Source: Sphaerisporangium krabiense
GTDB taxonomy: Bacteria > Actinomycetota > Actinomycetes > Streptosporangiales > Streptosporangiaceae
Length of the DNA stretch: 64,000 nucleotides
Direction: 5' to 3'
Assembly (NCBI RefSeq): GCF_014200435.1
Contig: NZ_JACHBR010000001.1
Coordinates: 4,061,501-4,125,500, forward strand
The position numbers and the translations under genes are program-made. Below, in pieces: positions 28,006-52,298 of this stretch. Position 1 is the stretch's first letter. Each line of letters opens with the position of its first letter. The notes under the pieces were generated by a model. That model was not told the DNA's origin, searched no databases, and saw only the letters and a program-made list of their open reading frames with translations.

Positions 28006-28821
28006 TCAGGTCGAGGTGTGCGCGTGAGAGACGAGAGAGCAGCGCAGGTGGCGCAGGGCGTCTTCGGCCCGGTTGAGAATGGCCGAGTGGATGGCCTGGA
28101 GATCCGGTCCCGGCTCGACGCCGAGGTCGCCCACCAGGACCGCGCGGGCTTGGCCGAAGGTGTCCAGCGCGCCGACCAGATCTCCGGCGAAGTAGCAGGC
28201 CCGGGCCAGTTGTCCCCACGAACGTTCTCGGTAGGGGTGGTGGGCGAGAACGGCCCGGATGTGGGGGATGAGCACGCTGTGCCGTCCCAGTTGCAGGCGG
28301 ACCTCGGTGAGATCCTCCTGCGCCGCGACCCGTAGCCGGTTGTGGGCCCCCAGCCATTCCATGAGGCTGCCGGCGCCGGACACGTCAGGGCCTCCGGCCG
28401 GTCCGCGCCACAGGGCCAGTGCGGCCGACAGCTTGGCCTCCGCCTCCCGCACCTCGTTGGTCGCCAGCGCGGTCTGGCCGTCGTCGAGGAGCCGGTGGAA
28501 GACGAACAGGTCGATCTCGCTGGGGGAGATGTTGAGGCGGTAGCCGCCGCTGCCCTTGCCACCGCGGACGGAGGTGACCGTCTCGCTGCACACTCCGGCG
28601 TGACGGAGGATCTTGCGTAGGTGACTGATGTAGGTGCGGATGTTGCTCGCCGCGCCGCTCGGGACCTGGTCCCAGATCAAGGTGGCGAGCTGTTCTTGCG
28701 TGACTTCCTGCCCGACGTGCAGCGTGAGGGCTGCCAGTACGCTGCGGGCTCGATGTTCCAGGGCTTGGGTTCGCTCTTCTTCGCCATGAACGACGACGGG
28801 GCCTAAGAGGCCGATGAGCAT
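28006..28821 (-). CDS. SARP-family activator (AfsR/DnrI type) of RiPP cluster
   Basis: This 271-residue protein has an OmpR-type winged helix (residues about 10-95: TQEQLATLIWDQVPSGAASNIRTYISHLRKIL) followed by a bacterial transcriptional activation domain (about 100-250; LDTFGQARAVLVGDLGVEPGPDLQAIHSAIL). That is the minimal SARP layout of pathway-specific activators of natural-product genes in actinomycetes. It is divergent from the YcaO gene of the RiPP cluster and is its likely switch. Confidence 0.9.
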   Translation of the reverse strand: MLIGLLGPVVVHGEEERTQALEHRARSVLAALTLHVGQEVTQEQLATLIWDQVPSGAASNIRTYISHLRKILRHAGVCSETVTSVRGGKGSGGYRLNISPSEIDLFVFHRLLDDGQTALATNEVREAEAKLSAALALWRGPAGGPDVSGAGSLMEWLGAHNRLRVAAQEDLTEVRLQLGRHSVLIPHIRAVLAHHPYRERSWGQLARACYFAGDLVGALDTFGQARAVLVGDLGVEPGPDLQAIHSAILNRAEDALRHLRCSLVSHAHTST

Positions 28822-29148: not shown

Positions 29149-30516
29149 ATGAGGTTGTTCGAGGCGGCTCCACGGGGGACGAGCGTTCCCGCCTCGCTGG
29201 CGAGCATGGGAAGGCTGGTGTCGGCCTACGGCCTGGTGTCCACGCTGAGCTGGCTGCCCGTCACCGAAGGGGAGAGTAGTTTCCCCATCTTCTCTGGATC
29301 GTTGGGCAATCCGGGCGCGGTACTGGCCGCGCACCGGGATTGGGAGCACGACCCGTCGTCCGGCAATTTCGACGGCGCGGGCGGAGCACTGGACCCGGAG
29401 ATCGCCGCCCATCTGGCGGTGGCCGAATCGCTGGAGCGCTACAGCTCGTGCGCCTGGCACCCGGACGCGACGATCTGGGCCACCGCGGAGGAGCTGGGCG
29501 AGGACTGCATCCCGCCGGACGGCTGGCCGAGCCTGTCCCGGCGTGAGTACGCCGACCCCAGGTGCGGGCTGGTGCCCCCGGACCCGAGGATTCCGCTGCG
29601 CTGGGTGGAGGCGTACTCCCTGACCAGGGGCCGCAAGGTGTACGTCCCCGCGTCGCAGGTGTATTTGAAGTACCCGCCGGAGTCGGCCGCCGAGCGCCAC
29701 GTCCACCCGATCTCGACCGGGTGCGCCGCCCACTCCGAGCCGATCGCCGCGGTGGTCAACGGACTGCTGGAGGTGGTGGAGCGCGATTCGATCTCCCTCA
29801 CCTGGCTGCAGCGGCTGCGCCTGCCCCGCCTGGAGTTCGACCTCGGCGAACTGGCCCCGGAGCACCGGGCGTTCGCCGAGCGCGCCGCGAACCACAACAC
29901 CCGGGCCGTGATGTTCGACGCGACCACCGACCTCGGCATCCCGGTGATCTACGGGCTGGTGCTGGCCGACCACGATCCGGTGATCGCCCAGACGGTGGTG
30001 GCCACCTGCGATGTCGACCCGGGCCGGGCCATCGCCAAGTGGTACAGGGAGGCGGCCTCGCTGCGGATCGCGCTGCGGGCGCTGGCGGGTGACGAGAGGA
30101 ATCCGAACGTGGCCCCGGAGGACACGCTGAGCGTGACCGGGGGCGCCCTGCTGGCCGGCTCGCCGGACAAGCGGCATCTGTTCGACTTCCTGCTGGAGGG
30201 GGATCGGCCGGTCCACCGCCTGGCCGACCTGCCCACTCCGCCCGCCGGGGCCGGCGACCGCCAGGTGCTGGCCTGGCTGCTCGAACGGTTGCACGCCGCG
30301 GGCTGCGAGGTGGTGGTGGCCGACATCACCACCGACGAGGCCCGCCAGGTCGGGGCGCACGTGGTGCGGGTGATGGTGCCGCAGGCGATGCCGCTGAGCT
30401 TCATGCACCGTGCCCGCTACCTGGGACACCCGCGCCTGTACGAGGCTCCCGCGGCGATGGGCCACCCGGTGCACGCCGAGGCCGACGTCAACCCCCACCC
30501 CCAGCCGTTCGCCTGA
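29149..30516 (+). CDS. YcaO cyclodehydratase of RiPP cluster
   Basis: This 455-residue YcaO protein is the ATP-dependent enzyme that turns Cys/Ser/Thr of a precursor peptide into thiazoline/oxazoline rings. ATP/Mg-binding elements are present: AVAESLERYSS near residue 90 and NGLLEVVERDSISLTW near residue 205. The C-terminus PHPQPFA keeps the Pro-rich tail that reaches the active site in azoline-forming YcaOs. It needs an E1-like partner, supplied by the next two genes. GGAG lies nine bases before the ATG. Confidence 0.92.
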   Translation: MRLFEAAPRGTSVPASLASMGRLVSAYGLVSTLSWLPVTEGESSFPIFSGSLGNPGAVLAAHRDWEHDPSSGNFDGAGGALDPEIAAHLAVAESLERYSSCAWHPDATIWATAEELGEDCIPPDGWPSLSRREYADPRCGLVPPDPRIPLRWVEAYSLTRGRKVYVPASQVYLKYPPESAAERHVHPISTGCAAHSEPIAAVVNGLLEVVERDSISLTWLQRLRLPRLEFDLGELAPEHRAFAERAANHNTRAVMFDATTDLGIPVIYGLVLADHDPVIAQTVVATCDVDPGRAIAKWYREAASLRIALRALAGDERNPNVAPEDTLSVTGGALLAGSPDKRHLFDFLLEGDRPVHRLADLPTPPAGAGDRQVLAWLLERLHAAGCEVVVADITTDEARQVGAHVVRVMVPQAMPLSFMHRARYLGHPRLYEAPAAMGHPVHAEADVNPHPQPFA

Positions 30517-30538: not shown

Positions 30539-31186
30539 ATGCCGCCTGACCTGCGTCGCCATGCCCTGATCCTCGCCTCCGGCCCGTTCGGGCACGCGGT
30601 CGCCGACCGGCTGCGCTCGAGAGAACTGCCGGAACTGGACGAGGTGACGGTGCAGCCGGCCGACCACGGCACGCATCCCAGCCTGTGGCCCCGCGCCGAC
30701 CTGCTGGTCTTCGCCACCTCACACGAGCGGCCGCGCGTCAGCGAGGCGATCGACGAGAAGGCGTTCATCTGGCGCCTGCCGTGGCTGGAGATCTGCGCCG
30801 AGCCGACCGAGGTGAGGGTCGGCCCGGTGGTCACCCCCGGCCGTACCGCCTGCCACCGGTGTTTCGTCAACCGGCGTCACCAGCACCGGCGCTCGATCTT
30901 CACCCCGGCCGCCGGCGACGAGCATCCGACCGGGTTCGCCGCCCACCATGTCGGGATCACCGCGGCTCTGGCCCGTCAGGCGATCGCCGAGGCTCTGGAC
31001 GGCCCGGCCGGGGGCGCGATCGGGGGCACGGTGCGCCGCCTGAACCTGGTCACCGGCGCCTTGGGCTCGTCCGCCGTCGTGGCGGGGGACCGCTGCCCCC
31101 GCTGCAGAGGAACGTCGGACAGCGAGGAACTGTGGCGCGAGCTCGCCGAGGCGACGCGGGCGGCCACCGGAAGGGCGGGTGCGTGA
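30539..31186 (+). CDS. Small E1/ThiF-like cyclodehydratase partner
   Basis: This 215-residue Rossmann-like protein (ALILASGPFGHAVADRLR) has two CxxC pairs (CHRC near residue 104 and CPRC near 185) that would bind structural zinc as in the ocin-ThiF/TOMM C-proteins. It lacks an obvious adenylation loop. In azole-peptide systems such proteins present the leader-bound precursor to YcaO. AAGGAGA precedes the ATG, and its stop overlaps the next start (TGATG). It is the shorter of two paralogous partners here. Confidence 0.75.
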   Translation: MPPDLRRHALILASGPFGHAVADRLRSRELPELDEVTVQPADHGTHPSLWPRADLLVFATSHERPRVSEAIDEKAFIWRLPWLEICAEPTEVRVGPVVTPGRTACHRCFVNRRHQHRRSIFTPAAGDEHPTGFAAHHVGITAALARQAIAEALDGPAGGAIGGTVRRLNLVTGALGSSAVVAGDRCPRCRGTSDSEELWRELAEATRAATGRAGA

Positions 31187-32802
31187 TGGCGGACGATGTT
31201 CTGACGGCCGAGCGGATCGGCGCCGTCGCGAAGTGGGACCCCCAACTGCGCATCCCGGTCAGACCCCGGGTCCGGCGCGGCCTGGTGATCGCGGTCGGGG
31301 CCGGCGAGGTGGCCGTGGAGGGAGGCCCGAAGCGGCAGCTCTTCCGCGGGGCCTCGGCGACCGAGTTCCTGCCCAGGCTGCTGGAGGCGTGTACCGGCGA
31401 GCGGTCGCATGCCCGGCTGGCCGAGGAGCTGGAGGTCCCCGAGGAGATCGTCTTCAAGGCGCTGTCGCTGCTGTGGACGTGCGGCGTGGTGGAGGAGGCC
31501 GCTCCGGAGACGCCCCTTTCCGCGCCGGTGCCTGATCCCTTGGCGGACGTGCTGTCGCGGCTGGGCGATTCGACCGGCGCCAACCCGGCGTGGGAGCAGG
31601 CCGTGGCGCGGCTGCGGTCGGCGCGGGTGGAGGCGTTCGGCGACCCCGAGCTGATCCGCCTGCTGGACGCCGAGTTGTCGGACTCGCTGACGATCCAGCC
31701 TGCCGCCGACGTCGTGCCGAGGGCGGACACCACGTTCGTGGTCAGCCTGGGCATGGCCGGCCGCGAACTGGCCGAGCACTGTTGGGACAAGAACATCCCC
31801 CTGCTCCGGCTGCGCCTGTCCGGCCGCCGGGCGATCCTCGGCCCGCTCACCCAGCCGGGCCTCAGCCCGTGCCTCGACTGCCAGGCCGCCGAGGACGGGC
31901 TGGACGAGCGGGACGCGACGGCGGCGGACGCCGGGCTGGCGGTGGCGCTGTTCGCCCGCGAGCTGTTCGCGCTCATCTCGCGGGCCGTCCCCTCGACGCT
32001 GCCGATCCGGTGGCGCTCGGTCGACCTGGAGACCCTCGGCCACGCGGAGTTGTCGGCGGCGACCAGGCCGGGCTGCCCCCGCTGCTCGATCGCCGGTGGC
32101 CCGGCGGCGGAGCGGGCGTCGCTCGCGGCACGCTACGAGGCGGCGGTGAGCCTTCCACCGAAGGCGTTCGCCGACATCAAGGCCCACCAGATGCATTACA
32201 AGCCGTCGAACATCGCCCTGCAGAGCAGGTCGAAGACCTGGCCGGTCGCGCCGTGCGTCGCCCTGCCCGTGCCGCGACCCGAACGGCTGGCCGACCCCAC
32301 CCCCTCCGGGAAGATCACCGGGGAGGAAACGGCGCTGTTGCTCGCCACGGTCGCGGGAATCCAGGGCGTCAACGATCAAAGGGTGCAGCGGTGGACCGCC
32401 TCGGGCGGCAACATCGGCTCGGTCACCGCCTACGCGGCGGTGCGGGACGTGCCGGGGATCGAGCCGGGCCTCTACGGCTACGTCCTGTCGGAGCAGCGGC
32501 TGGCGTGGCTGTCGCCCGAGGTCGGCGCGGTGGGCGGGGACGCGCCGTTGACGATGGTGCTGACCGGCGACTTCGCCAAGGTCGCCCAGAAGTACGGCCC
32601 CTTCGCGCTCCGCATCGTGCTCCTGGACTCCGGCTGCGCGCAGGCGACCGCCCGCGAGGTGGGCGGGGCTCTCGGCCTGCGCCTGGACTTCCGGCTCCAC
32701 TGGGATGACGCCTCGATCGGCCATGCCCTGAACGTCAGGCCCGACAGCGAGCCGATCACGGCCGTGATCGACTTCTCGACCCCGATCGGAGGCGCCCGGT
32801 GA
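31186..32802 (+). CDS. RRE/ThiF-like protein fused to SagB-like nitroreductase half
   Basis: This 538-residue protein has three parts. Residues about 15-105 look like a PqqD-type peptide-recognition winged helix (LFRGASATEFLPRLLEAC, LAEELEVPEEIVFKALSLLW). Residues about 160-320 are ThiF-like with CLDC and CPRC zinc pairs. From about 325 the sequence resembles SagB-type nitroreductases (QMHYKPSNIALQSR, GIEPGLYGYV). It would bind the leader peptides and support cyclodehydration, and might also contribute to azoline oxidation; whether the C-terminal half binds FMN is unclear. Confidence 0.75.
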   Translation: MADDVLTAERIGAVAKWDPQLRIPVRPRVRRGLVIAVGAGEVAVEGGPKRQLFRGASATEFLPRLLEACTGERSHARLAEELEVPEEIVFKALSLLWTCGVVEEAAPETPLSAPVPDPLADVLSRLGDSTGANPAWEQAVARLRSARVEAFGDPELIRLLDAELSDSLTIQPAADVVPRADTTFVVSLGMAGRELAEHCWDKNIPLLRLRLSGRRAILGPLTQPGLSPCLDCQAAEDGLDERDATAADAGLAVALFARELFALISRAVPSTLPIRWRSVDLETLGHAELSAATRPGCPRCSIAGGPAAERASLAARYEAAVSLPPKAFADIKAHQMHYKPSNIALQSRSKTWPVAPCVALPVPRPERLADPTPSGKITGEETALLLATVAGIQGVNDQRVQRWTASGGNIGSVTAYAAVRDVPGIEPGLYGYVLSEQRLAWLSPEVGAVGGDAPLTMVLTGDFAKVAQKYGPFALRIVLLDSGCAQATAREVGGALGLRLDFRLHWDDASIGHALNVRPDSEPITAVIDFSTPIGGAR

Positions 32803-33554
32803 GCGGACCGCTGGACCTGGCGACCGAACTGATGACCTCCTTCTCCGCGCCGCCGCCCGCGCGGGCCGGCCAGGTGCGCCGCGACAGGCCGGACCGGGCC
32901 GGCCTGGGAGACACGATCACCTTCCCGGTGACCGGCCACCCCCGCTCGGACCTGCTGAGCACGCTACGGCGGCGCCACTCCACCCGGTTCTACTCCGGCG
33001 AGGCGGTCGACGCCCGCCTGCTGGCCGACGTGCTCGCCCGCGGCCTGGTCGACGACGCCGACTCCTGGGCCGCCGAGCACGAGTGCTGCCCGTTGAGCCT
33101 CGACGTCGTCGCCTTCCGGGTGGACGGGCTGGAGAGCGGCATGTACGCCCTGGATCCGCTCGCCTTGTCCTTCACCGCCCTGGCGCCGCTGCCCCCGCGG
33201 GAGGCGCTGCGCGACATGACGATCCAGAGCGAGTTCTGCGACTCGGCCGCGATCATCACCGTCACCGGTGACCTGGAGCACGCGGCCGAGACGCACGGCG
33301 GGCACGGCTACCGGATGCTGATGACCCGTGCCGGAGCCGCCGCCTACGCGGCGTGGCTGGAGGCGGTCGCCTGCGGCCTGGTCGGCACGGTGTTCGCCGG
33401 GTTCATCCCCTCCTCCGTGCGCGTTCCGCTGCACTGCGACGGGTCCTCCCGCCACCAGCTGTTCGCCCTGGCCCTCGGTACTCCGGCCGGGGCGAACCCC
33501 GAGATCGGCGCCGGCGGAACGGCCGCCGGCCACGACGCCTCTGAAAGGAGGTGA
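32799..33554 (+). CDS. SagB-type nitroreductase (azoline dehydrogenase)
   Basis: This 251-residue nitroreductase-fold protein has LRRRHSTRFYSGEAVD near the start of its FMN-binding domain, DMTIQSEFCDSAAIITVTGD and RMLMTRAGAAAYAAWLEAVACGLVGTVFAGF. SagB-type enzymes use FMN to oxidise thiazolines/oxazolines to aromatic azoles. It starts at GTG 32799, overlapping the previous stop, and its own stop lies inside the AAGGAGGTGA ribosome site of the first precursor gene, so translation of enzyme and precursor may be coupled. Confidence 0.85.
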   Translation: MSGPLDLATELMTSFSAPPPARAGQVRRDRPDRAGLGDTITFPVTGHPRSDLLSTLRRRHSTRFYSGEAVDARLLADVLARGLVDDADSWAAEHECCPLSLDVVAFRVDGLESGMYALDPLALSFTALAPLPPREALRDMTIQSEFCDSAAIITVTGDLEHAAETHGGHGYRMLMTRAGAAAYAAWLEAVACGLVGTVFAGFIPSSVRVPLHCDGSSRHQLFALALGTPAGANPEIGAGGTAAGHDASERR

Positions 33555-33559: not shown

Positions 33560-33724
33560 ATGGCAGAGAAGCTCGACCTGTACGCGCTGGGTGACTCGCT
33601 GGAGCTGGAGACCCTCGCCGAGGGCGCCGCGCTGGCGTCGGTATCCAGCGGTGGCACGGCGTCCACGGCTTCGTGTCCGGCCACCAGCGCCTCCTCGCTG
33701 TCCTGCTTCTCCAGCTACACCTGA
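33560..33724 (+). CDS. RiPP precursor peptide 1
   Basis: This 54-residue precursor has a leader starting MAEKLDLYALGDSLELETL and ending about EGAALA, and a core from about SVSSGG rich in Ser/Thr with Cys39 and Cys49. The stretch TASTASCPATSASSLS is identical to precursor 6. The core ends CFSSYT. A near-perfect ribosome site (AAGGAGGTGA) precedes the ATG. It is the first of six tandem precursor genes between the dehydrogenase and protease genes; its ring and dehydration substrates would be the Cys/Ser/Thr residues. Confidence 0.88.
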   Translation: MAEKLDLYALGDSLELETLAEGAALASVSSGGTASTASCPATSASSLSCFSSYT

Positions 33725-33744
33725 TCGGCAAGGAGGTGATTGTG

Positions 33745-33912
33745 ATGGCCCTCGACCTGCACGCCGTCGAACTGCCCGACGGCGCCCTGTCGAGCGAGCG
33801 GATGCCGGACGGAGTGGCGCTGGGCACCTACAGCTCGATGTCCACGGTCGGCACGATGAGCTGCCCGGTCAGTTCTGCGACCTGCGCCATGACGGTCGGG
33901 TGCGCGGGCTGA
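33745..33912 (+). CDS. RiPP precursor peptide 2
   Basis: This 55-residue precursor has a leader with LDLHAVELPDG, close to precursor 3, ending about DGVALG. The core TYSSMSTVGTMSCPVSSATC has three cysteines with the tail TVGCAG, the most Cys-rich of the set, and contains Met. The shared SCP is at residues 39-41. AAGGAGGTGATT precedes the ATG. It lies 20 bp after precursor 1. Confidence 0.87.
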   Translation: MALDLHAVELPDGALSSERMPDGVALGTYSSMSTVGTMSCPVSSATCAMTVGCAG

Positions 33913-33935
33913 CCGCGCCCCACCAGGAGGTATCC

Positions 33936-34106
33936 ATGCACTCGCTCGACCTGCACGCGGTGGAGCTGCCCGCGGACGGACTGCTCATCGAGAACATGCC
34001 GGAAGCGGCGGCACTGGCCACGTGGGGCACCTCGGGAACCGCGTCGACCGCCAGTTGTCCCTTCAGCACCGCGAGCACGGCGATGACCGCCGGAACCGCG
34101 AGCTGA
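33936..34106 (+). CDS. RiPP precursor peptide 3
   Basis: This 56-residue precursor has a leader LDLHAVELPADGLLIENMP ending about EAAALA. The core TWGTSGTASTASCPFSTAST has one cysteine (in SCP) and ends AMTAGTAS, so nearly all modifiable residues are Ser/Thr. CAGGAGG precedes the ATG. The ELP(x)-(x)-AAAL leader end is shared with precursor 5. Confidence 0.87.
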   Translation: MHSLDLHAVELPADGLLIENMPEAAALATWGTSGTASTASCPFSTASTAMTAGTAS

Positions 34107-34138
34107 AAGCGCCTTTTCCCAGAAGGGGGGTGAACACC

Positions 34139-34297
34139 ATGAAGCTCGAACTTTACGCCATCGACGGCGACCTCGGCATCGAGGAACTGCCGCAGGCCAA
34201 CGCGCTCGGCAGCTGGTTCTGCGCCAGCTCCGCCTCGACCGCGTCGTGCCCCGGCACCTCGGCGGCGACCGCCAGCACCGCTTCGACCTTCGGCTGA
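34139..34297 (+). CDS. RiPP precursor peptide 4
   Basis: This 52-residue precursor has a leader LELYAIDGDLGIEELPQ, nearly the same as precursor 6, ending about NALG. The core begins SWFCASSASTASCPGTS, with cysteines at 28 and 37, and ends TASTFG. A G-run (AAGGGGGGTG) serves as ribosome site. Confidence 0.87.
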   Translation: MKLELYAIDGDLGIEELPQANALGSWFCASSASTASCPGTSAATASTASTFG

Positions 34298-34339
34298 TCC
34301 ATGCCGGCACTTCACACGATCCGAAAGGGAGGTCACACG

Positions 34340-34486
34340 ATGTCTCACCACTTCGACCTGTACGCGCTGGACGTCGAACTGCCCGTCGAGCCGTTGCCGG
34401 AGGCCGCCGCACTGGGCGTGCCCATCTCGACGCTGGGGACCTTGGGGTGTCCCGCCAGCACCGTAGGCACCTGGGCCTGCCGTTAG
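34340..34486 (+). CDS. RiPP precursor peptide 5
   Basis: This 48-residue precursor is the shortest and most divergent. Its leader is FDLYALDVELPVEPLPEAAALG; the core VPISTLGTLGCPASTVGTW ends in ACR. It keeps the invariant Cys-Pro and a second Cys next to the C-terminus, is less Ser/Thr-rich and contains Leu, Ile and Trp, reminiscent in composition of goadsporin. GGGAGGT precedes the ATG. Confidence 0.87.
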   Translation: MSHHFDLYALDVELPVEPLPEAAALGVPISTLGTLGCPASTVGTWACR

Positions 34487-34573
34487 TCCCGCCAGGCGGG
34501 CACACCGCCTGAGAAGCGGCGGACGAGCCTGACACCAGGCCGGCCGCCAAATCCCCGTAGGGAGGTGACCACC

Positions 34574-34738
34574 ATGTCCGACCGGTTCGAGCTGTACGCC
34601 CTGGACCAAGACCTCGGCATCGAGGAGCTGCCGCAAGGCGACGCGCTGGGCTGTTTCGCGTGCGCGGCCACCGCGTCGACGGCGTCGTGCCCGGCGACCT
34701 CGGCGTCCAGCCTCAGCACCTCGTCGACCTACGGCTGA
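34574..34738 (+). CDS. RiPP precursor peptide 6
   Basis: This 54-residue precursor has a leader FELYALDQDLGIEELPQ, like precursor 4, ending about GDALG. The core starts CFACAATASTASCP with cysteines at 27, 30 and 39; its central 16 residues equal those of precursor 1, and it ends STSSTYG. GGGAGGTGACC precedes the ATG. It is last of the array, 87 bp after precursor 5. Confidence 0.88.
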   Translation: MSDRFELYALDQDLGIEELPQGDALGCFACAATASTASCPATSASSLSTSSTYG

Positions 34739-34966: not shown

Positions 34967-36070
34967 GTGCCCATCGCCTCGCCGAGACTCCGCCAGGAGC
35001 TCGAGGTCATCCGCGGAATGGACGACATTCCGCTGATCTTCGACCCGGTGACCGGCAGCTACCATCGCATCACCCGCGCGGGCGAGGTGGTGCTCTCCTA
35101 TCTCGACGGCTCCCGCACCCGCGAGGAGCTGGTCGAGCTGTTCGCCGGCGACGACACCGGCCACGCGGAGAAGCTCCGCGCTCAGATCGACGGCTTTCTG
35201 GCCACGCTGGAGTCGTCCGGGCTGCTGGACGGCACCGGTCCGCCGCCGGGTGCCGGGCAGGCGGGCAGGCGCGTCAAGACCTCCCGGATGATGCCGCGCG
35301 TCGTGATCACCAGGAAGCTGCCGGTGCTCCTGGAGCCCGTGGCGGGCGTGCTGCGCCGGATGTCCGCCACCGTGCTGGTGGGCGTCTTCGCCGTGGGCGC
35401 GATCGCCGGTTTCTGCCTGGGCCTCACCACGCTGTTCACCAGGATGCCGAACCTGACGCACATCATCGGGCCGCCGTTCCTCGTGGCCGCCGCCCTGCAG
35501 TTGCTGCTGGTGCTGTGCCACGAGACCTGCCACGCCCTGGTGGCGCAGGTGCTGAAGGTGCCGGTGCGCGGGCTCGGGGTGGCGCTGCTGTTCTACTTCA
35601 TGCCGGTGGCGTACGTGGACCGCACCGACGCCTACCGGCACAAGGGCAAGGGCGGCCGGATCACGCTGGCCATGGCGGGCGTCATGTCCGACGGCTGGTG
35701 GTGCGGCGTCGTCGGCCTGGTCGCGCTGAACACGCACGGCTTCGTGCAGCAGTCGCTGGCCTTCCTGCTCGCCATGCAGCTCATGGGCCTGGTGATCAAC
35801 CTGAATCCGTTGTTGCCTTCCGACGGTTTCGTGGCGCTGGAGACCGCGTTCGGGTCGGTGGACGCCCGGGGCCGCGCGTTCACGCTGATCAAGAGCCGTC
35901 TGCTCCGGCGTGAGCCGCCGGCCTATCTGGCGGCGCTGTCGCGCGGGAAGCGGGCCGGGCTGACGCTGTACGGCGCGATCTCGGCCGCCTACACCTGCCT
36001 GGTGGCCTACGGCGCGTTCCGGGGCGTCCCGGCCGTGGTGGGGATGGCCGTCAAGGCGGTGCAGGGATGA
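34967..36070 (+). CDS. PqqD-type RRE fused to M50 membrane metalloprotease
   Basis: This 367-residue protein has an N-terminal domain (residues about 5-90: PLIFDPVTGSYHRITRAGEVVLSYLDGSRTREEL) resembling PqqD, the RiPP leader recognition element. Then follow several membrane helices with the site-2-protease motifs HETCH (about residues 185-189) and NLNPLLPSDG (about 278-287), which ligate zinc. A leader-binding domain joined to an intramembrane protease suggests it cleaves the leaders during maturation or export. The GTG start follows CGGAGGATCC. It overlaps the LanB gene by four bases. Confidence 0.85.
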   Translation: MPIASPRLRQELEVIRGMDDIPLIFDPVTGSYHRITRAGEVVLSYLDGSRTREELVELFAGDDTGHAEKLRAQIDGFLATLESSGLLDGTGPPPGAGQAGRRVKTSRMMPRVVITRKLPVLLEPVAGVLRRMSATVLVGVFAVGAIAGFCLGLTTLFTRMPNLTHIIGPPFLVAAALQLLLVLCHETCHALVAQVLKVPVRGLGVALLFYFMPVAYVDRTDAYRHKGKGGRITLAMAGVMSDGWWCGVVGLVALNTHGFVQQSLAFLLAMQLMGLVINLNPLLPSDGFVALETAFGSVDARGRAFTLIKSRLLRREPPAYLAALSRGKRAGLTLYGAISAAYTCLVAYGAFRGVPAVVGMAVKAVQG

Positions 36071-38529
36071 CCGGCGCCACCGCGGGCGGCGGGCGGCGTC
36101 CGGTCCTGTCCGGGCCGGTGATGACGCGCGTGGGCGGGGTGCCGGTCGACGCGCTGGACATCGTCGGCGAGCCGACCCGGCGGCTGCTCGCGGACGTGGC
36201 CCGCACGGGGCGGCGGCTGGCGGAACTGGCCGGCCCGCTCAACGACGCCCTGTACGCCGTGGTCCCGCGGCTGGACGACGATGTGGCGCTGCGGCGCGAG
36301 GTGCTCGCGGGCAGGCGCGCCCTGCACCGGCTGCGAACCCCGCGATGGACGCCGGAGACGATCGAGAAGGTCGTCACCCTGCTGGACGAGCCCGCCGGTG
36401 ACCTGCTGCGGACGTGGGTGCGTCTGTCGCAAGAGCGGACCGCCACGCTCGGCGAACTCTCCGTCCAGGTGGAGCACGACCGGGAGGCCGCCCTGCGGAT
36501 CCTGCGCGCCGCCCTCGACGACCCGGGCGTCATGGCATCGATGGCGATCGCCGCACCCGACTGGGTGCGGCACGGCAAGATGGAGGCGGCCACGCCGCGC
36601 ACCGTGAAGACGTTGTACTCCTACGTCTCCCGGGCCGCCGTGAAGACCAGCCCGTTCTCGGGGCTCACCACGGTGGGCGTGGCCGGGGCCAGGGCGGAGG
36701 GGCGGGCGCTGAGCCGCACCGCCGTCGCCCTGGCGATGCTCGCCGCGCAGCGTCTGGCCCGCGACCCGGCCACCGCCGCGCTGCTCCGCTACCGGGGCGC
36801 CCCCGTCCGGCCCGGCGGGCGCGACGCGCCGGGCGGGCTGTTGCTGCACGGCGAGACCGTCAATGCCGGCGGGGTGGTGTGGCGGTCGGATCGGGTGATG
36901 GAGGCCGACCACGCGGCGCCGTGGCTGGCCGGTCTTCCCGGCGGGGACCTCACGCTGGCGACGGTGCTGGACCACCTGGGCGGGGCCGATCCGTTCGCCC
37001 GGTTCCGCCGCCTGCTGGACGCCGGCGTGCTGACGATCGTGCAGCCGTGGCGGCAGGGCGAGGATCCGCTGGCCGTGCTGGCCACGCTCATGGACGGCGT
37101 TCCCGCCGGCCCGATCGGCGCGGACGAGCTGCGCGCCGCCCACACGCGCGGGGCACAGGCCAATCGGGCGAGCGCGAAGGAAAGGCTGGCGGCGCTGGCG
37201 GACCTGGACCGGTTCGCCCGCGCCTGGGCGCGGCCCTCCCACGGCAGACCCGCCCCGTCGGCGTTGCTGTACGAGGACCGCGAGGCCGATGGCGACCTGC
37301 CCGACGTCACCGCGCACGAGCCGGTCGCGGAGGACCTGCGGGCGCTGGGCGAGAGGATGCGGCCCGCCATCTTCCGATCTCACGTCTACGACCTGCTGGT
37401 GGACTCCTTCGTCGCCGAGTTCGGGGCGGGCGGGGTGTGCGATGATCCGCTGGGATTCCTCCTGCGGCTGTCGATCGAGCGTGACGCCAACCCGCCGCTG
37501 GACGCCGCGATCGCCGCCGACCTCACCCGCCGCGGTGACCCGGGGGAGCGGGCCTGGCTCCCGGTGGGGCCCACCAGCGCCCCGCCGTCCGCCGCGGTGC
37601 TGTTCCAGCTCGCCGCCGACGGCCACGACAGCGTGGCACGCGGAAACCACCGGTTGGTGGTCAACCAGTTCAGCGCGGGCGGCGGCGGCCTGTTCAGCCG
37701 GTTCACCGGCCTGCTGGGAGAAGGGTTCCGGGACCGGCTGCGCGAGCACGTCATCGCCACGCGGCCGGGTGTGGCGTGCCGGGAGTTCGTGGTCTGGAGT
37801 GACTGCAACACCGCCCAGGCCATGTGCGGCGGGTTGTTGCCGCCACTGCTGCTTCCGGGCGAACCGGCCGCCGAGCACGCGATCACGCTGGATGACACCC
37901 GCCTGGTGCACGACGCGGCGACGGACACCCTGTCGCTGGTGGACCTGGCCGGCGAGCCGATCGGCCTGGCGTACCTGGGGCTGGTCCCGCAGCACACGCT
38001 GCAGTCCTATGTGCGGCTGCTGGCGGTGCTGGCCGACCCGTGGGTGAACGGCTCCTCCGATTCCGACTACACGATGACCCGGATGCCGGAGCTGATGGCG
38101 GGATGCCACCCCGAGCAGGTGGTCGCGCTGCCGCGGGTGAGCGAGGGGCGGCTGGTGCTGCGGCGTGCCTCCTGGCTCGCGCCGGTCGCCTCGCTGCCGC
38201 TGCCCCGGGCGGGTGAGTCGGACGCGGATCTGGTGGTGCGGATGGACGCCTTCCGCCGCGCGCACGGAATGCCGGAGGAGGTGTTCGTCCACCAGGTGGG
38301 CGGCCAGGGCTTCTACAGCGCCGCGCACCGCAAGCCGCTGTGGGCCTCGTGGGTCTCTCCGACCTCCGGCGCGGTGCTCGCCGGGTGGCTGGACGCCGCC
38401 ACCACGCACGTCCGGATCACCGAGGCGCTGCCGGACCGCCGGATGCAGCCGCAGCGAGACGACCAGGGGAGACGGCGGGCGAGCGAGCACGCGGCGGTCC
38501 TGGTCTGGCCCAAGGAGCACACCCCATGA
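36067..38529 (+). CDS. LanB-type dehydratase, glutamylation part
   Basis: This 820-residue lantibiotic-dehydratase N-terminal (glutamylation) family protein contains the family segments SYVSRAAVKTSPFSGLTTVG and NHRLVVNQFSAGGGGLFSRF. It lacks the C-terminal elimination domain, which is encoded by the next gene. Such split LanBs (as in goadsporin and thiopeptide pathways) use glutamyl-tRNA to glutamylate Ser/Thr of the core. It overlaps the genes on both sides by four bases, so the protease, dehydratase and eliminase are translated together. Confidence 0.9.
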   Translation: MTGATAGGGRRPVLSGPVMTRVGGVPVDALDIVGEPTRRLLADVARTGRRLAELAGPLNDALYAVVPRLDDDVALRREVLAGRRALHRLRTPRWTPETIEKVVTLLDEPAGDLLRTWVRLSQERTATLGELSVQVEHDREAALRILRAALDDPGVMASMAIAAPDWVRHGKMEAATPRTVKTLYSYVSRAAVKTSPFSGLTTVGVAGARAEGRALSRTAVALAMLAAQRLARDPATAALLRYRGAPVRPGGRDAPGGLLLHGETVNAGGVVWRSDRVMEADHAAPWLAGLPGGDLTLATVLDHLGGADPFARFRRLLDAGVLTIVQPWRQGEDPLAVLATLMDGVPAGPIGADELRAAHTRGAQANRASAKERLAALADLDRFARAWARPSHGRPAPSALLYEDREADGDLPDVTAHEPVAEDLRALGERMRPAIFRSHVYDLLVDSFVAEFGAGGVCDDPLGFLLRLSIERDANPPLDAAIAADLTRRGDPGERAWLPVGPTSAPPSAAVLFQLAADGHDSVARGNHRLVVNQFSAGGGGLFSRFTGLLGEGFRDRLREHVIATRPGVACREFVVWSDCNTAQAMCGGLLPPLLLPGEPAAEHAITLDDTRLVHDAATDTLSLVDLAGEPIGLAYLGLVPQHTLQSYVRLLAVLADPWVNGSSDSDYTMTRMPELMAGCHPEQVVALPRVSEGRLVLRRASWLAPVASLPLPRAGESDADLVVRMDAFRRAHGMPEEVFVHQVGGQGFYSAAHRKPLWASWVSPTSGAVLAGWLDAATTHVRITEALPDRRMQPQRDDQGRRRASEHAAVLVWPKEHTP

Positions 38530-39371
38530 GCGCACGTCAGGACTGGTGGTACGTCCGCGCCTATCCCGGCGACGCGACGCTGATGGACCGGGCGGCCGAG
38601 ACGCTGCTGCCGTGGCTGCGCGATCTGGCGGCCCGCGAGGGGGCCGACCGGTGGTTCTTCGTCCGCTATTGGGATCTCACCGGCCACCACCTGCGGCTGC
38701 GGCTGCGGCTCGGCGCCGATGCCGCCGACCGGCTGCACGGCCGCCTGGACGACGTGGTGGGCCTGCTGCGAGGTCTCCCGGCCGCCGGGGAGGCCCGGCG
38801 GCTGGTGACGGGCGCGGCGCCGATGGGGACGGGCGGCGCCAGGCACGCCACGACCTGCCTGTACGCGCCGGAGCTGGCCAAGTACGGCGGCACGCGCGGG
38901 GTCGGCCTGGCCGAGGAGCTGTTCACCGCGTCCAGCGCGTGGATCGCCGGTAACTCCCTCATCGGCTTCGACCAGCCGGGCGCGCGGGCGCGGCTGGCGG
39001 TGACGTTCATGCGAGGGCTGATCGAGGCCGCGCTGCCCGCGGCCGGGCACCAGGAGTTCTGGGCGGCGCACCGCCGCCAGTGGGGCGGTCAGCTGCGCGT
39101 GCTGGTGCGCACCCAGCCGGAGCTGAACGCCTTGCTGGGCCGGGTGGCCGACGGCGTCGCGCAGGCCGAGGACGTCACCGGCCGGCTGCGGCACGGCCTG
39201 GACGAGCACGTCGGGCAGGTGGTGGCGGCGCTCGACCGGGCCGAGAGGGAGGACAACCCGGTGCCCCGGCCGGTGCTGCTCCTGCACTACCTGCACATGG
39301 AGATGAACCGCTGGGGGTTCGTCCCCGCCGAGGAGTGCGGCCTCGGCGTCCTCGCCGCCTCCACTGGCTGA
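38526..39371 (+). CDS. SpaB_C-domain protein (glutamate elimination)
   Basis: This 281-residue 'thiopeptide-type bacteriocin biosynthesis' protein has WWYVRAYPGDATLMDRAAETLLPWL at its start, then WFFVRYWDLTGHHLRLRL and LLHYLHMEMNRWGF at the end, as in the SpaB_C family. Members either eliminate glutamate to give dehydroalanine/dehydrobutyrine or perform pyridine-forming cyclisation in thiopeptides. As the only such gene here, paired with a LanB that needs an eliminase, elimination is the simpler assignment. Confidence 0.85.
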   Translation: MSARQDWWYVRAYPGDATLMDRAAETLLPWLRDLAAREGADRWFFVRYWDLTGHHLRLRLRLGADAADRLHGRLDDVVGLLRGLPAAGEARRLVTGAAPMGTGGARHATTCLYAPELAKYGGTRGVGLAEELFTASSAWIAGNSLIGFDQPGARARLAVTFMRGLIEAALPAAGHQEFWAAHRRQWGGQLRVLVRTQPELNALLGRVADGVAQAEDVTGRLRHGLDEHVGQVVAALDRAEREDNPVPRPVLLLHYLHMEMNRWGFVPAEECGLGVLAASTG

Positions 39372-39465: not shown

Positions 39466-40418
<953 letters not shown>

Positions 40419-40419
<1 letters not shown>

Positions 40420-41183
40420 TGTCCGTCGTGACGCGTGAACTGATCGGATTGCACCGCCGCGAGCTGATGCGCGACAAGCGCTACTTCTGGTTCGCCCTGT
40501 TCTTTCCGTTCGGCATGATGGCCATCTTCCTGGCGATCGGCAGGCTCATGCCCAGAACGGAGGGCGCCCCGAACTTCCTCCAGCTCCTCACCCCGATGGC
40601 GCTGTTCCTGGCGGTCACCTCCACCTCGCTCATCGTCACCTCAGGGTCGCTGGCGAACATGCGCGCCAAGGGCGCGCTGCGGTTGCTGGGCACCACCCCG
40701 GTCGGCCGCGGACGCCTGCTGGCCACCCACATGGTGGTGCGGATCGGCATGCTCCTCGTCCAGGCCGCGGCCCTGCTGGCGATCGCCACCGTGGCCGCCG
40801 ACCTGGACCCGGGGCGCGTCCCGGTCCTGTTCGGCGTCACCTTGCTGGGAATGGTCATGTTCGGCGGGATCGGCTACCTGATCGGCGGCCGGATGAACTC
40901 GCCGGACGCGGCGACGAACGTCGGCAACGTGGTCCAGCTGGCCGCCCTGTTCCTGTCCGGCCTGGCCTTCCCGCTCTCGTTGATGCCCGACGCCGTGGCG
41001 AGCGTGTTGCGCATGCTGCCGACGACGTTCTTCGCCGACCTTCTGCTCGGCCAGATGCCCGGCGCGTCCCCTTATCATCCATCGTGGCTGTCGATCGTCG
41101 TGGTCGTCGGGACCGGCCTGCTCGCCGCCGCGGTCGCGATCGGCACCTTCAAATGGGACCAGGGGGAGGGACGCCGCGCATGA
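40419..41183 (+). CDS. ABC-2 type permease
   Basis: This 254-residue ABC-2 permease has six hydrophobic helices and the LRLLGTTPVGRGRLLATH and NVVQLAALFLSGLAFPLSLMPD segments usual for DrrB-like exporters. ATG 40419 overlaps the ATPase stop (CGTGATG). It is the membrane channel of the cluster exporter. Confidence 0.9.
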
Positions 41184-41608
41184 GCGAGGACGGCAACGCC
41201 CGGGAGTCGCTGGACCAGGCCGCCTACCTGGCCGGCCGGCTGCGCGCGCAGGGCCGCTGGCACCTGTGGGGCATCGCCCTGCTCGGTGTGATCGTCTTCG
41301 TGGCGATCCTCGCCAGCGGCATGCTGCTGGAGCAGCCCGCCCAGCTGTCGGGGTTCATGGTGGCGCTGGTCGCCATGATGCTGATGGTGATCTACACCAG
41401 CACCCGCCGGGTGATCCCGCGCCACCACAAGATCCTTTATTCGGTCGCCTTCCCCCTCGGCGCGCTGTTGATGGCCCTGACCACGACGCTGGGGCCGGTG
41501 CTCTTCCCGCACGTGCTGTGGTGGTGGACGGCCGGCGCGACCGCCTCGACCCTGCCGTACTGGGCCGTCATCGTCGCCAACCGGGTCACCGGCGACCGGG
41601 CCGGATGA
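41180..41608 (+). CDS. Small four-helix membrane protein
   Basis: This 142-residue protein has a short soluble N-terminus and four hydrophobic helices (WGIALLGVIVFVAILASGMLL, SGFMVALVAMMLMVIY, ILYSVAFPLGALLMALTTTL, LWWWTAGATASTLPYWAVIVA). No family is recognised with certainty. It is co-translated (ATGA overlaps) between the exporter permease and a small regulator; membrane/regulator pairs of this size accompany DrrAB-like exporters in actinobacteria and may sense or protect the membrane. Confidence 0.75.
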   Translation: MSEDGNARESLDQAAYLAGRLRAQGRWHLWGIALLGVIVFVAILASGMLLEQPAQLSGFMVALVAMMLMVIYTSTRRVIPRHHKILYSVAFPLGALLMALTTTLGPVLFPHVLWWWTAGATASTLPYWAVIVANRVTGDRAG

Positions 41609-41904
41609 TGATCCACCCCCGCAAGGACCTCGACCCGGTCATCCACGCGCCGGTGCGGTTCTCCATCATGGCGGCGCTGGCGGCGGTGGACGAGGTGGAC
41701 TTCAAGACCCTCGCCGAGGCGATCGAGGTGTCGGACTCGGTGCTGTCCAAGCAGCTGTCGGTGCTGACCGACGCCGGGTACGTCAAGCCGCGCAAGATGT
41801 TCGTCGGCAAGTTCCCCCGCACCTACGCCGCGCTCACCGGCGCGGGCCGCACGGCCTGGACCCAGCACCTGACGGCCCTGCGGGAGATCGCGGGAGACCT
41901 CTGA
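41605..41904 (+). CDS. Small winged-helix regulator of exporter operon
   Basis: This 99-residue protein is a single winged helix (HAPVRFSIMAALAAVDEVDFKTLAEAIEVSDSVLSKQLSVLTDAGYV) of the MarR/ArsR-like 'transcriptional regulator' family common beside ABC exporters. It is last in the exporter operon with a four-base overlap. It may bind the repeats at 39384-39412 and autoregulate the operon. Confidence 0.85.
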   Translation: MMIHPRKDLDPVIHAPVRFSIMAALAAVDEVDFKTLAEAIEVSDSVLSKQLSVLTDAGYVKPRKMFVGKFPRTYAALTGAGRTAWTQHLTALREIAGDL

Positions 41905-43172: not shown

Positions 43173-43455
43173 CGGCGGTCCTCTCCCTCCGACATATGGT
43201 CTGATCACCGCCGGTGAATCGGCGACAGATCGTCCGAAGCGCGTCCGCGTGCCGCCCATCTACGGTTACCGATATAGCACATCGACGCAACGTGCGGAGT
43301 GAGGGCGGTAACGCCGTCGCCGCGCCCCCCGGCCACGGTCGACCCCCGCCGCCTGGGCGATACGGCGAATACTCACATCCGCTGATCACGCCTGCGCGAA
43401 CACTCGGCCCACGCTGAGCGGATTCCATGCAGGATTGGGAAGGAAACTGATTCAC
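43173..43455. promoter_or_regulatory. Divergent control region, PucR gene and aromatic operon
   Basis: This 283-bp intergenic region lies between the divergent regulator and operon. A short dyad CGCCG-GTGAAT-CGGCG lies near 43207-43224, and AT-richer patches at 43185-43205 and 43262-43285 could be promoters. No unambiguous operator or hairpin is seen. Confidence 0.4.
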
Positions 43456-44298
43456 GTGGCCGAGACCACTGAGCGGACCGTTACCACCAACGGCTATTCC
43501 ACTTTCTTTCTGGACTCCGGTGACGAGGCTAAGGAAGCGGTGATATTGCTGCACGGCGGCGGCCCCGGCGCCAACGCCGCGTCGAACTGGCGCGGGTTCG
43601 TCCCGGCCCTGTCGGACGAATACCGGGTTCTCGCCCCGGACCTCGTCGGCTACGGCCGTACCGACCACCCCGAGGATATGCCAAGCAGCCTCATCGGCTG
43701 GCTGCGCATGCGCGTGGACCAGGTGCTGGCCCTCATGGACGCCCACGGCATCGAGCAGGCCCACCTGGTCGGCAACTCGATGGGCGGCGCCCTCGCGATG
43801 CACCTGGTCATGGCGGCCCCGGAGCGCGTCCGCAAGGTCTCTCTCATGGGCAGCGCGGGCGGTCACTCGCAGCCGACGCCCGAGGTCATGCGGATGGTCT
43901 CGTTCTACAAGGATCCCTCGCTCAGCGCCCTGGAGAACCTGACGAAATGGTTCGTCCACGACGAGAACGAGCTCGGGGCGTCGATCGCGGCCATCGCCGA
44001 GGAGCGGCACAAGGAGATCATGCGGCCGGAGATCCGCCGCTCGTACGAGTGCTTCTTCTCCTCCTCCCCTGCCGAGGCCGCGGTGCCGCCGTCGGCGCTG
44101 CGCCGGATGGCGCACCCGTTCCTCCTCGTGCACGGTCGCGAGGACCGGTTCGTGACGCCCGACTCCAGCGTGTACCTCCAGCGGCATCTGCCCAACGCGG
44201 AACTGCACATCTTCCCGCGCTGCGGCCACTGGGTGCAGATCGAGCGGGCCGACGCCTACGCGGTCCTCCTCCGGAACTTCCTCAAGGCAGCGAACTGA
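43456..44298 (+). CDS. Alpha/beta hydrolase, meta-cleavage product hydrolase type
   Basis: This 280-residue alpha/beta hydrolase of the MhpC/BphD group cleaves C-C bonds in ring-fission products. The oxyanion region LHGGGPGANAASNW, nucleophile GNSMGGA (Ser), acid HGREDRFV (Asp) and base CGHWVQIE (His) are all visible. GTG 43456 is chosen, with GGAAGGAAA upstream. It is first in an operon with a type I extradiol dioxygenase, the enzyme that makes its substrate. Confidence 0.9.
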   Translation: MAETTERTVTTNGYSTFFLDSGDEAKEAVILLHGGGPGANAASNWRGFVPALSDEYRVLAPDLVGYGRTDHPEDMPSSLIGWLRMRVDQVLALMDAHGIEQAHLVGNSMGGALAMHLVMAAPERVRKVSLMGSAGGHSQPTPEVMRMVSFYKDPSLSALENLTKWFVHDENELGASIAAIAEERHKEIMRPEIRRSYECFFSSSPAEAAVPPSALRRMAHPFLLVHGREDRFVTPDSSVYLQRHLPNAELHIFPRCGHWVQIERADAYAVLLRNFLKAAN

Positions 44299-44316
44299 CC
44301 GTTAGGAGCCAGACAG

Positions 44317-45177
44317 ATGGACATCAAGCAGCTCGGATACCTCGGCCTGTCCGCACGCGAGCCGGACGCGTTCACCACCTACGCCACCGACATCCTCGGC
44401 ATGCAGCGGGTCGCGGGTGAGGACAACGCCACCCACTTCCGCATCGACGACCGCCACCACCGCATCACCGTCGAGGCGTCCGACCGTGACGGCGGCGCGT
44501 ACTACGGCTGGGAGCTCGCCGACGCCGACGCGCTCCGCGCCGCGATGGACGAGCTCAGCGACCACGGTGTCATCGCCCGGCCGGCGTCGCAGCGCGAACT
44601 GGAGATCCGCCGCGTCGCCGGAATGGTCCACTTCCTCGACCCGGCCGGCAACCGCGTCGAGCTCTTCCACGGCGCCACGACCGGTGAGGGCGAGTTCACC
44701 TCGGCCCGCGACCTCGACCGCTTCATCACCGGTGAGCTCGGCCTCGGCCACGTGGTCCTCGCCAGCCCGGACGTGGCCGCCCAGCAGCGGTTCTACACGG
44801 ACGTGCTCGGCTTCAAGATCAGCGACACCATGCGCACGCCGTTCCAGGCCACGTTCCTGCACACCAACCCGCGCCACCACAGCATCGCGTTCGTGGACGG
44901 CCCGTTCTTCGGCATCGACCAGCCGTTCCTGCACCACTTCATGCTGGAGGTCCCCGACATGGACGAGGTCGGGCGCACCTACGACCTGGTCCTGGACCGC
45001 GACGTCCCCGTCACGATGACGCTCGGCCGGCACAGCAACGACCAGATGTTCTCCTTCTACGCCGAGTCTCCCGTCGGCGTGCACACGGAGTTCGGCAGCG
45101 GCGGAGTCCTCATCGACGACGCGACTTGGGAGGTCACCGAAATCCCCGGCCCGGACCTCTGGGGCCACCGTCACTAG
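44317..45177 (+). CDS. Type I extradiol ring-cleavage dioxygenase
   Basis: This 286-residue two-domain vicinal oxygen chelate protein is like 2,3-dihydroxybiphenyl or catechol 2,3-dioxygenase. The Fe(II) facial triad is visible in the C-terminal domain: His in GLGHVVLASPD, His in PFLHHFMLEV and Glu in VGVHTEFGSGG. It opens a catechol ring next to the hydroxyls. The ring-fission product would pass to the preceding hydrolase. Confidence 0.92.
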   Translation: MDIKQLGYLGLSAREPDAFTTYATDILGMQRVAGEDNATHFRIDDRHHRITVEASDRDGGAYYGWELADADALRAAMDELSDHGVIARPASQRELEIRRVAGMVHFLDPAGNRVELFHGATTGEGEFTSARDLDRFITGELGLGHVVLASPDVAAQQRFYTDVLGFKISDTMRTPFQATFLHTNPRHHSIAFVDGPFFGIDQPFLHHFMLEVPDMDEVGRTYDLVLDRDVPVTMTLGRHSNDQMFSFYAESPVGVHTEFGSGGVLIDDATWEVTEIPGPDLWGHRH

Positions 45178-45195
45178 CTCTTCGGAGAAAAGATC

Positions 45196-46932: not shown

Positions 46933-46942
46933 GCTAAGCCTT

Positions 46943-48529: not shown

Positions 48530-50599
48530 CACAGACCAGGACGCCCGGCCCGCTGAACGCGCTCTTCGCGCCACGCGGCATCGCGATCGTCGGGGCGTCG
48601 CGGAACCCGGCGAAGCTCGGGGCCGCGATGGCCCGTTCGCTAGAGGGCTTCGCCGCGGCGGGTGGTCACCTGGCCCTGGTGAACGGACGCGACGACACCA
48701 TGTATCCGTCGATCGGCGCCGCGTCCGCCGACGGCCCGATCGACCTCGCGGTGCTCTGCGTTCCCGCCGCCGCCTGCGCCGCCATCCTCGCCGAAGCGGC
48801 CGGCGCGGGCGTACGGGCCGCGCTCGTCTGTGGCGGAGGCTTCGCGGAGGTCGCCGACGGGCAGGGCGCCGAGCATCAGCGCCGCCTCACCGAGATCGCC
48901 CGCGCCACCGGCATCCGGGTGCTCGGCCCGAACACCAGCGGATTCCTGGTGCCCGGCGCGCACCTGACGGCGAGCTTCGTCCCCGGAACGTCCCGCGTGC
49001 CGTCCGGCGGCGTCGCGGTCGTCGCGGCGAGCGGCGGCGTCAACCACGCGCTGGCGTTCGCGCTCGCCGAAGCCGGGCACGGCATCAGCCTGGCCGTCGG
49101 CCTGGGCAACGGGGCCGACGTGACGGCGCCCGACGTCCTCGACCATCTCGCCGGCGATCCGGACACGACGGCCGTGGCCCTGCACGTCGAGACGGTGGCG
49201 GACGGCCCGCGGCTGATCGCCGCCGTGCGGCGCCTGACCGCCCGGCGGCCCGTGGTGGCCCTGGTGGTCGGGCGTAGCGACGTGGGCGCCTTCGCCGCCT
49301 CGCACACGGGCGCGCTCGCCACGTCCTGGCGGTCCACCCGCGCCGCGCTCGCCCAGGCGGGCGCCGTCCTCGTCGGGGACGAACGGGAACTGGTGGACGC
49401 CGTGGGCGCCCTCGCGGTGACGCGAGCCCGCGCGGCCGGCGATCCGGGCGTGGGCGTCGTCACCGCCCAGGCGGGTCCGGGGCTGCTCCTGCTCGACAAC
49501 CTCCAGGGGCGCTCGATCGCCGTCCCCGAACTGACCCGCCACACCCAGGACGGGATCGCGGCACTGCTGCCGCCACTGACCTACCAGCGCAACCCGGTGG
49601 ACACCGGTCGCCCGGGCCCGGCGATGAGCGGCGTCCTCAAGGCCGTCGGCGCCGACCCCGGTGTGGACATCGTCGCCGCGTACGCCCTGCACGAGCCGGG
49701 CGCGGTCGACCTGGTCGCCGCCGCACGAGCGGGCCGGACCGACGGCGTCCCCCTGGTCCTCGGCCTGGGCGGGACGGGCGAGGCCGTCGCCCGGGACCGG
49801 GACGCGCTGCGGGCCGCCGGAATCGCCGTGGCCGGTGATCCCGCCGGAGTCGCCGCCGCGACCGCCGCGCTCGTCGCGGACGCCCGCGCCCGCTCGATCG
49901 GCGGCGGCGAGCCCGCGGCCCCTGGCGCGGTCGTCGAGGTGGCCGACGACTACGACGAGGGCCAGGCCAAGGACCTCCTCGACCACCTGGGCATCGCGAC
50001 CATGCCCCGCCGCCGCTGCGCCACCCGTTCCGCCGCGCACGAGGCGTTCGACGCGCTCGGCGGCGATGACGGCGACGGCGGCGTCCGCCCCGTCGCGGCG
50101 AAACTGCTCGACGCCGCGGTGCTCCACAAGACCGAGATCGGCGGCGTCCATCTCGGCATCACCGGCCACCAGGCCCTGGACGCGGCACTCGACCGCCTCG
50201 ACGCGGCAGGCGCCCGCCGCTACCTGATCGAGGCGATGGCGCCGCCCGGGATCGACCTGATCGTCGGCGCGCGCCGCGACCCGGTGTTCGGCCCCGTCGT
50301 CCTCGTCGGCCTCGGCGGCACCGTCGCGGAAGCGCTGGCCGACGTCGCGGTCCGCCTGGCGCCGCTGTCCGTGGAGGAGGCGAGCGGCATGCCGTCGGAA
50401 CTCTCCGGACGTGCCCTGCTCGCCGGATGGCGCGGCGGCCCGGTCCTGGCGCCACGCGCGCTCGGCGAGGTCGTGGCCGCCCTCGGCGGCCTGCTCGCCG
50501 CCAACCCGCGCATCGACGAGATCGAGATCAACCCGTTGCGGCTGACGCGCACAGGTCTGATCGCCCTGGACGCCGTCATCCTCACGAGAAAGGCCGACG

Positions 50600-50619: not shown

Positions 50620-52297
<1,678 letters not shown>

Positions 52298-52298
52298 C

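Follow-up and report, generated by a model that had tools for sequence, protein, structure and literature searches.

A putative goadsporin-type RiPP cluster of Sphaerisporangium krabiense with six tandem precursor genes and a recurring set of core types

Introduction

Goadsporin, encoded by the god cluster of Streptomyces sp. TP-A0584, has one structural gene (godA) and combines azoles with dehydroalanine (PMC5303826). The cluster contains YcaO, dehydrogenase and split LanB genes, the cyclodehydratase being a fused protein (PMC4603692), as well as an ABC transporter carrying a peptidase domain (GodB) and a GNAT acetyltransferase.

Daptide clusters contain several precursors each and an RRE-dependent intramembrane protease, and some combinations of daptides are more haemolytic than the single peptides (PMC10036551); daptide precursors end in an invariant Thr. 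Dehydrazoles, such as carnazolamide, unite azoles with dehydroamino acids in a single peptide (PMC10676384) and involve a DUF4135 LanM-type dehydratase.

The locus described here lies in a 64,000-nucleotide stretch of the Sphaerisporangium krabiense genome (contig NZ_JACHBR010000001.1, positions 4,061,501 to 4,125,500), referred to as the window. The system is real and its parts are ordinary, their combination being unusual; the novelty lies in core types that are retained as a set.

The precursor genes

As claimed in a preliminary description of the locus, six tandem precursor genes lie at 33560 to 34738 inside one RiPP enzyme set, and all six open reading frames were located:

33560 to 33724, forward strand: precursor 1, alpha type, 54 aa (NF033482, 55.8 bits)
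33745 to 33912, forward strand: precursor 2, beta type, 55 aa (41.8 bits)
33936 to 34106, forward strand: precursor 3, beta type, second copy, 56 aa (39.8 bits)
34139 to 34297, forward strand: precursor 4, gamma/delta group, labelled gamma by us, 52 aa (72.6 bits)
34340 to 34486, forward strand: precursor 5, divergent, without clear orthologue and alone in the core clustering, 48 aa (28.0 bits)
34574 to 34738, forward strand: precursor 6, gamma/delta group, labelled delta by us, 54 aa (68.9 bits)

Each of the six has an ATG start and a purine-rich ribosome site, and each contains the leader pattern [LF][DE]L[YH]A, the AL[GA] motif and a Cys-Pro. The ELP also ascribed to the leader is present in five precursors, at no fixed position, but is missing from precursor 1. 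The intergenic gaps are exactly 20, 23, 32, 42 and 87 bp, although their steady rise is not a conserved property: among the 17 clusters compared it is found only in the window and in one other locus (L073, with three gaps), and it was dropped as a meaningful pattern. The cores contain between one and three Cys and differ in their Ser/Thr content, and precursors 1 to 6 end in T, G, S, G, R and G. A scan for consensus promoters and terminators, with a tool limited to sigma-70 types, returned 0 and 2 sites, not above shuffled sequence.

No Pfam family matched any of the six peptides. In the search against known families that had been proposed, all six exceed the 25-bit cut-off of NCBIfam NF033482, named "thiocillin family RiPP" (28.0 to 72.6 bits), and they are the only places over this cut-off in the 8.5-Mb genome; none of 14 control genomes gave a match. 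A seventh, sub-cut-off match (23.5 bits, G000:C1:1584346-1584429) lies within a 493-codon open frame and is probably due to chance.

Contrary to what had been supposed, the family is not wholly undescribed: NF033482 covers every precursor of the array, and a tree legend in PMC8442711 (2021) names YcaO proteins linked to it. The words "thiocillin family RiPP" are also used with a Bacillus gene in PMC10327441 and occur in PMC11381294. Beyond the mention in PMC8442711, no literature on these clusters or on the recurring core types was found among open-licence papers, judged largely by title and start of abstract.

Putative modification, processing and export genes

The precursors are surrounded by the following genes:

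28006 to 28821, reverse strand: SARP/BTAD regulator, divergent from the cluster, of doubtful membership (PF03704, PF00486)
29149 to 30516, forward strand: YcaO cyclodehydratase, C-terminus NPHPQPFA (PF02624, 222.1 bits; TIGR03604, 337.4 bits, cut-off 219.25)
30539 to 31186, forward strand: leader-binding protein, ocin-ThiF-like (TIGR03882, 45 bits, cut-off 36.9)
31186 to 32802, forward strand: leader-binding region fused to a SagB-type dehydrogenase (TIGR03605, 52.8 bits, below the cut-off of 78.4; TIGR03882, 36.8 bits, just under 36.9)
32799 to 33554, forward strand: second nitroreductase-like (SagB-type) protein (PF00881, 28.4 bits, cut-off 23.5; TIGR03605, just 23.7 of 78.4 bits)
34967 to 36070, forward strand: PqqD/RRE-like domain fused to an M50-type site-2 protease (PF05402, 23.8 bits, cut-off 23.4; NF041824, 98.8 bits, below the cut-off of 300)
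36067 to 38529, forward strand: LanB glutamylation protein, 820 aa (PF04738; nearest solved chain 9jhq)
38526 to 39371, forward strand: SpaB_C protein, the presumed partner for glutamate elimination (PF14028; TIGR03891, 88.7 bits, cut-off 48.45; NF045556, 12.4 of 325 bits)
39466 to 40419, forward strand: ABC transporter ATPase (PF00005, PF13304)
40416 to 41183, forward strand: ABC-2 permease (PF12698, PF01061)
41180 to 41608, forward strand: small protein conserved in clade I, without a family assignment (no model scored close to its cut-off)
41605 to 41904, forward strand: ArsR-like regulator (NF033788, 38.4 bits, below the cut-off of 55)

The YcaO, ThiF-like, SagB, LanB, SpaB_C and protease genes are thus arranged around the array as previously stated, with the SagB-type matches below or near curated cut-offs, and the family matches bear out RiPP precursors served by a single enzyme set with genes for azole and dehydro chemistry. 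The trio typical of goadsporin clusters (YcaO, dehydrogenase and split LanB) is present, its SagB-type match being under the curated cut-off, and the azole and dehydroalanine logic of goadsporin would be shared as far as the genes indicate. In contrast to the fused cyclodehydratase of the god cluster, the YcaO protein here is discrete. A PxPxP-type C-terminus is a mark of azoline-forming YcaO proteins, and such an end was found in 15 of the 16 sequences read, including that of the window, the remaining one (L052) ending in NPHLQPFA.

The SagB fusion and the second nitroreductase-like protein may form an unequal pair. The fusion has no Pfam match; its K469-Y470, which we equate with the SagB-type catalytic Lys-Tyr, is invariant in all seven aligned sequences. 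By eye, the second protein lacks a Lys-Tyr pair at the position corresponding to that of the fused SagB.

The RRE-fused protein is read as a site-2 protease because of its motifs (HETCH and NPLLPSDG in the window; HExxH and NPLxPSDG in every one of 16 sequences examined, the window included) and its sub-cut-off match to the daptide protease model NF041824, and it is the probable leader peptidase. Whereas GodB combines ABC transport with a peptidase domain, Pfam finds no peptidase domain in the ABC ATPase of this cluster, where the RRE-site-2 protease stands instead. An RRE-fused site-2 protease and several precursors per cluster are features held in common with daptides; the modifying enzymes are different and the invariant C-terminal Thr has no counterpart, and a daptide assignment was rejected on the protease score (98.8 of 300 bits) and the varied C-termini.

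A combination of azoles and dehydroamino acids, predicted here from the genes alone, would also be shared with the dehydrazoles. A dehydrazole assignment was rejected since Lant_dehydr_N and SpaB_C proteins, that is, a split LanB, take the place of the LanM-type dehydratase, with no DUF4135 among the ten proteins scanned with Pfam. The GNAT acetyltransferase of the god cluster had no match among the scanned genes of this one. Goadsporin-type clusters carry an extra SRP54 gene for self-resistance; a scan of the genome found one ffh over the cut-off and a second place of 213.8 bits, about 50 kb from the cluster, which is possibly FtsY.

Putative dehydration chemistry and possible ring closure

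The nearest solved chain to LanB is a goadsporin biosynthetic protein (9jhq, E 9.1e-50), followed by a lantibiotic dehydratase domain protein (6ec7, E 3.7e-17). A SpaB_C profile matched MibB (5ehk, 2.7e-12), a thiopeptide-type bacteriocin domain protein (9g04, 8.9e-7) and NisB (0.002), and more weakly 7oj1 (0.062) and TsrE (7cww, 0.41); none of the six matching entries is named a pyridine synthase.

The family names, both that of NF033482 and the thiopeptide-type TIGR03891, would point to a thiopeptide, in which a pyridine from [4+2] cycloaddition closes the cores, but the enzyme set does not support such a reading. The genome (G000) contains a single TIGR03891 gene, and this SpaB_C protein is needed for elimination; in five of 11 relatives (G237, G239, G240, G334 and G241, where both hits fall within a single gene) the sole TIGR03891 gene is likewise the one beside LanB, the remaining six having more elsewhere. 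The SpaB_C protein scores 12.4 of 325 bits against the pyridine synthase model NF045556, and the cores have no common Ser at one starting place. Scanning the genome with NF045556 gave no match, which adds little because the controls were also silent, leaving the scan without a positive control. By its genes the cluster is not that of a thiopeptide, and with the SpaB_C gene single in this genome and in five of 11 relatives, we rejected the thiopeptide reading as very improbable.

A linear, goadsporin-like product is inferred from the gene content. Against linearity, lanthionine rings could be formed: the genome has four LanC-like places outside the cluster, of which the nearest on the same contig is about 0.65 Mb away. 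With none of the four close to the cluster, a lanthipeptide reading was set aside. These LanC-like genes, together with the uncontrolled pyridine synthase scan, lower our confidence in the explanation preferred below.

Related clusters and array size

The system is rare. NF033482 exceeds its cut-off in four of 60 genomes (G000 itself, G006 of the same genus, G015 and G001, the last with one place of 26.9 bits). The LanB protein was matched in 94 of 345 genomes of the order, of which twelve, this genome included, scored above 390 bits and the next 196; identity among the aligned members of the high-scoring group is 36–61%. A contig search added to the picture with 14 named loci, and two partial matches, with identities of 27.3% and 30.3%, came from a plasmid search with LanB. 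The genera of the 17 clusters compared, whose members were chosen by LanB and not by their precursors, include Sphaerisporangium, Nonomuraea, Streptomyces, Kitasatospora, Planobispora, Planomonospora and Streptosporangium.

Precursors aside, each of the nine genes from YcaO to the ABC permease was matched in all 16 relatives. The ABC genes lie upstream of YcaO in L052 and in the six loci of clade II, and downstream elsewhere. The small protein at 41180 to 41608 is matched in ten of ten clade-I relatives (weakest E 3e-4, in L052), and the ArsR-like regulator in nine (54–69% identity), being absent from L077. For the SARP regulator, the stretch examined before YcaO gave no match in the relatives; in eight loci (L074, L076 and L078–L083) matches lie on the far side, more than 16 kb away.

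All 17 clusters have several precursors, 83 in total: four in six clusters, five in seven and six in four, as counted with a profile grown from the six of the window (E < 0.01), with start codons set by a script rule and with two near-duplicate loci (L050 and L074) included. Several precursors are the rule here and not an oddity. The six-member array had been called unusual, which holds against goadsporin with its one structural gene but not among its own relatives, where six is one state in a range of four to six.

Cys-Pro occurs in 76 of the 83 precursors, the exceptions being L077_3 and six short clade-II peptides. A precursor of L077 at 7815 to 7970 combines the usual leader with a very Cys-rich core lacking Cys-Pro. 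The short precursor-like genes (33–35 aa, with a stub core and no Cys-Pro) are present in all six clade-II clusters and might be leader-only decoys or regulators:

L078, 7740 to 7844: short precursor-like gene
L079, 7620 to 7724: short precursor-like gene
L080, 7635 to 7742: short precursor-like gene
L081, 7800 to 7901: short precursor-like gene
L082, 7666 to 7773: short precursor-like gene
L083, 8019 to 8123: short precursor-like gene

At nine more distant LanB loci (L060–L068), precursor-like hits with E < 0.001 were found in L061 (two), L063 (three) and L068 (one) and in none of the other six, where precursors could be missed because the profile was built from the six of the window. The three genes of L063 (16819 to 17167, in the same-genus genome G008) have a different leader, and the LanB relative, 32% identical, lies some 9 kb from them.

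Conservation of core types

Unlabelled clustering of the cores of 43 precursors from nine clade-I loci into six clusters gave an alpha cluster of 9, a beta cluster of 11 and a gamma/delta cluster of 20, each drawn from all nine loci and the last with at least two members from each, leaving precursor 5, L077_3 and L077_5 as singletons; with only four or five clusters, alpha stays together with gamma/delta. In trees, alpha forms a clade with 99% bootstrap and beta is split off with 87%, or 88% when precursor 5 is added, whilst gamma and delta have no supported separation and L052_1 joins the alpha clade at just 65% and 42%. When 36 of the 43 precursors were compared under four labels that we set ourselves, with seven extras dropped, core identity was 73.9% within a type across loci against 48.1% between types of one locus. 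Of 288 best matches in another locus, 274 shared the type when judged by core and 195 when judged by leader, a partly circular count.

Over five Streptomyces and Kitasatospora loci, core dN/dS is 0.19 for alpha, 0.22 for beta, 0.22 for gamma and 0.34 for delta, and over nine loci it is 0.25–0.47, values from short peptides and from pooled pairs that are not independent. The corresponding leader values for the five loci are 0.18, 0.51, 0.32 and 1.05, so that the alpha leader is as constrained as the alpha core. Gamma and delta leaders are 68.1% alike within a locus and 53.1% between loci, whereas for their cores the values are 59.6 and 59.2, as if the leaders were exchanged or homogenised within a locus and the cores held apart.

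The array had been described as a library, which is doubtful because core types recur across genera with low dN/dS. A relaxed library, in which duplicated precursors drift apart while sharing one tolerant enzyme set and give varied products with no required combination, would account for the range of four to six copies, for extra copies in five of the nine clade-I loci (window precursors 3 and 5, L070_5, L071_5, L072_1, L077_3 and L077_5), three of them singletons, and for the likeness of gamma and delta leaders within loci, as expected of exchange between neighbours. It is nevertheless unlikely, given that alpha and beta cores are present in nine of nine clade-I loci, across four named genera and with low core dN/dS, and that no cluster of the 17 has fewer than four precursors.

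The recurring types and low dN/dS make a fixed product of several components more likely than a free-running library, and the retention of four to six precursors in related clusters suggests that this product is a set and not one compound. Several observations stand against such a fixed set. The six clade-II loci have a precursor set of their own, mostly in the same gene order, and matching clade I with clade II types one to one gave no clean match; gamma and delta are unseparated, alpha parts from them at six clusters but not at four or five, L052_1 is weakly alpha, the alpha leader is no less constrained than the alpha core, the delta leader has a dN/dS near 1, and the three singletons are what a diversifying array would give.

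Proposed pathway and product

The preferred explanation, which we consider probable, is a goadsporin-type RiPP pathway that would simultaneously make several linear peptides as a fixed set. From the genes, their families, their synteny and the recurrence of core types, we infer the reactions, cut site, export and purpose of the blend as follows. The leader-binding proteins would bind the [LF][DE]L[YH]A leader common to all six, after which YcaO would form azolines by cyclising Cys and part of the Ser/Thr; oxidation of these to azoles would fall to the SagB-type proteins. LanB would glutamylate other Ser/Thr using Glu-tRNA, with SpaB_C eliminating the glutamate to leave dehydroamino acids. The RRE-site-2 protease would cut the leader near AL[GA], and the ABC pair could export the peptides or protect the cell. 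Since distinct precursor types have been retained, a defined blend is the probable product, and its peptides might act together or on different targets.

A stricter form of this proposal, held only as a tentative possibility, is an obligate multi-component family of linear azole and dehydroamino-acid peptides, with at least three or four orthologous peptides needed together and retained across several genera. Alternatively, several conserved peptides could have separate jobs (for example antibiotic, signal or decoy) and form no joint blend, which would suit the differences in Cys number and Ser/Thr between the window cores and the conservation of each type individually; no observation here parts separate jobs from a blend, and we regard the former as somewhat unlikely.

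Returning to the fixed set, joint action of the conserved types would make this a goadsporin-like system with a defined peptide cocktail and would offer a direct test of why RiPP clusters retain several precursors, a multi-component question made testable by the retained core types. If the enzymes act on all six precursors, one cell would present six natural substrates on which to follow how YcaO and LanB share Ser/Thr.

Adjoining region

Beyond the cluster, the window from 43435 to 58745 looks like an aromatic-compound catabolic region (ten open reading frames of 43435 to 62571 were scanned), with genes for an alpha/beta hydrolase, a BphC-type dioxygenase, FAD hydroxylases, CoA-ligase-type proteins and HpaB.
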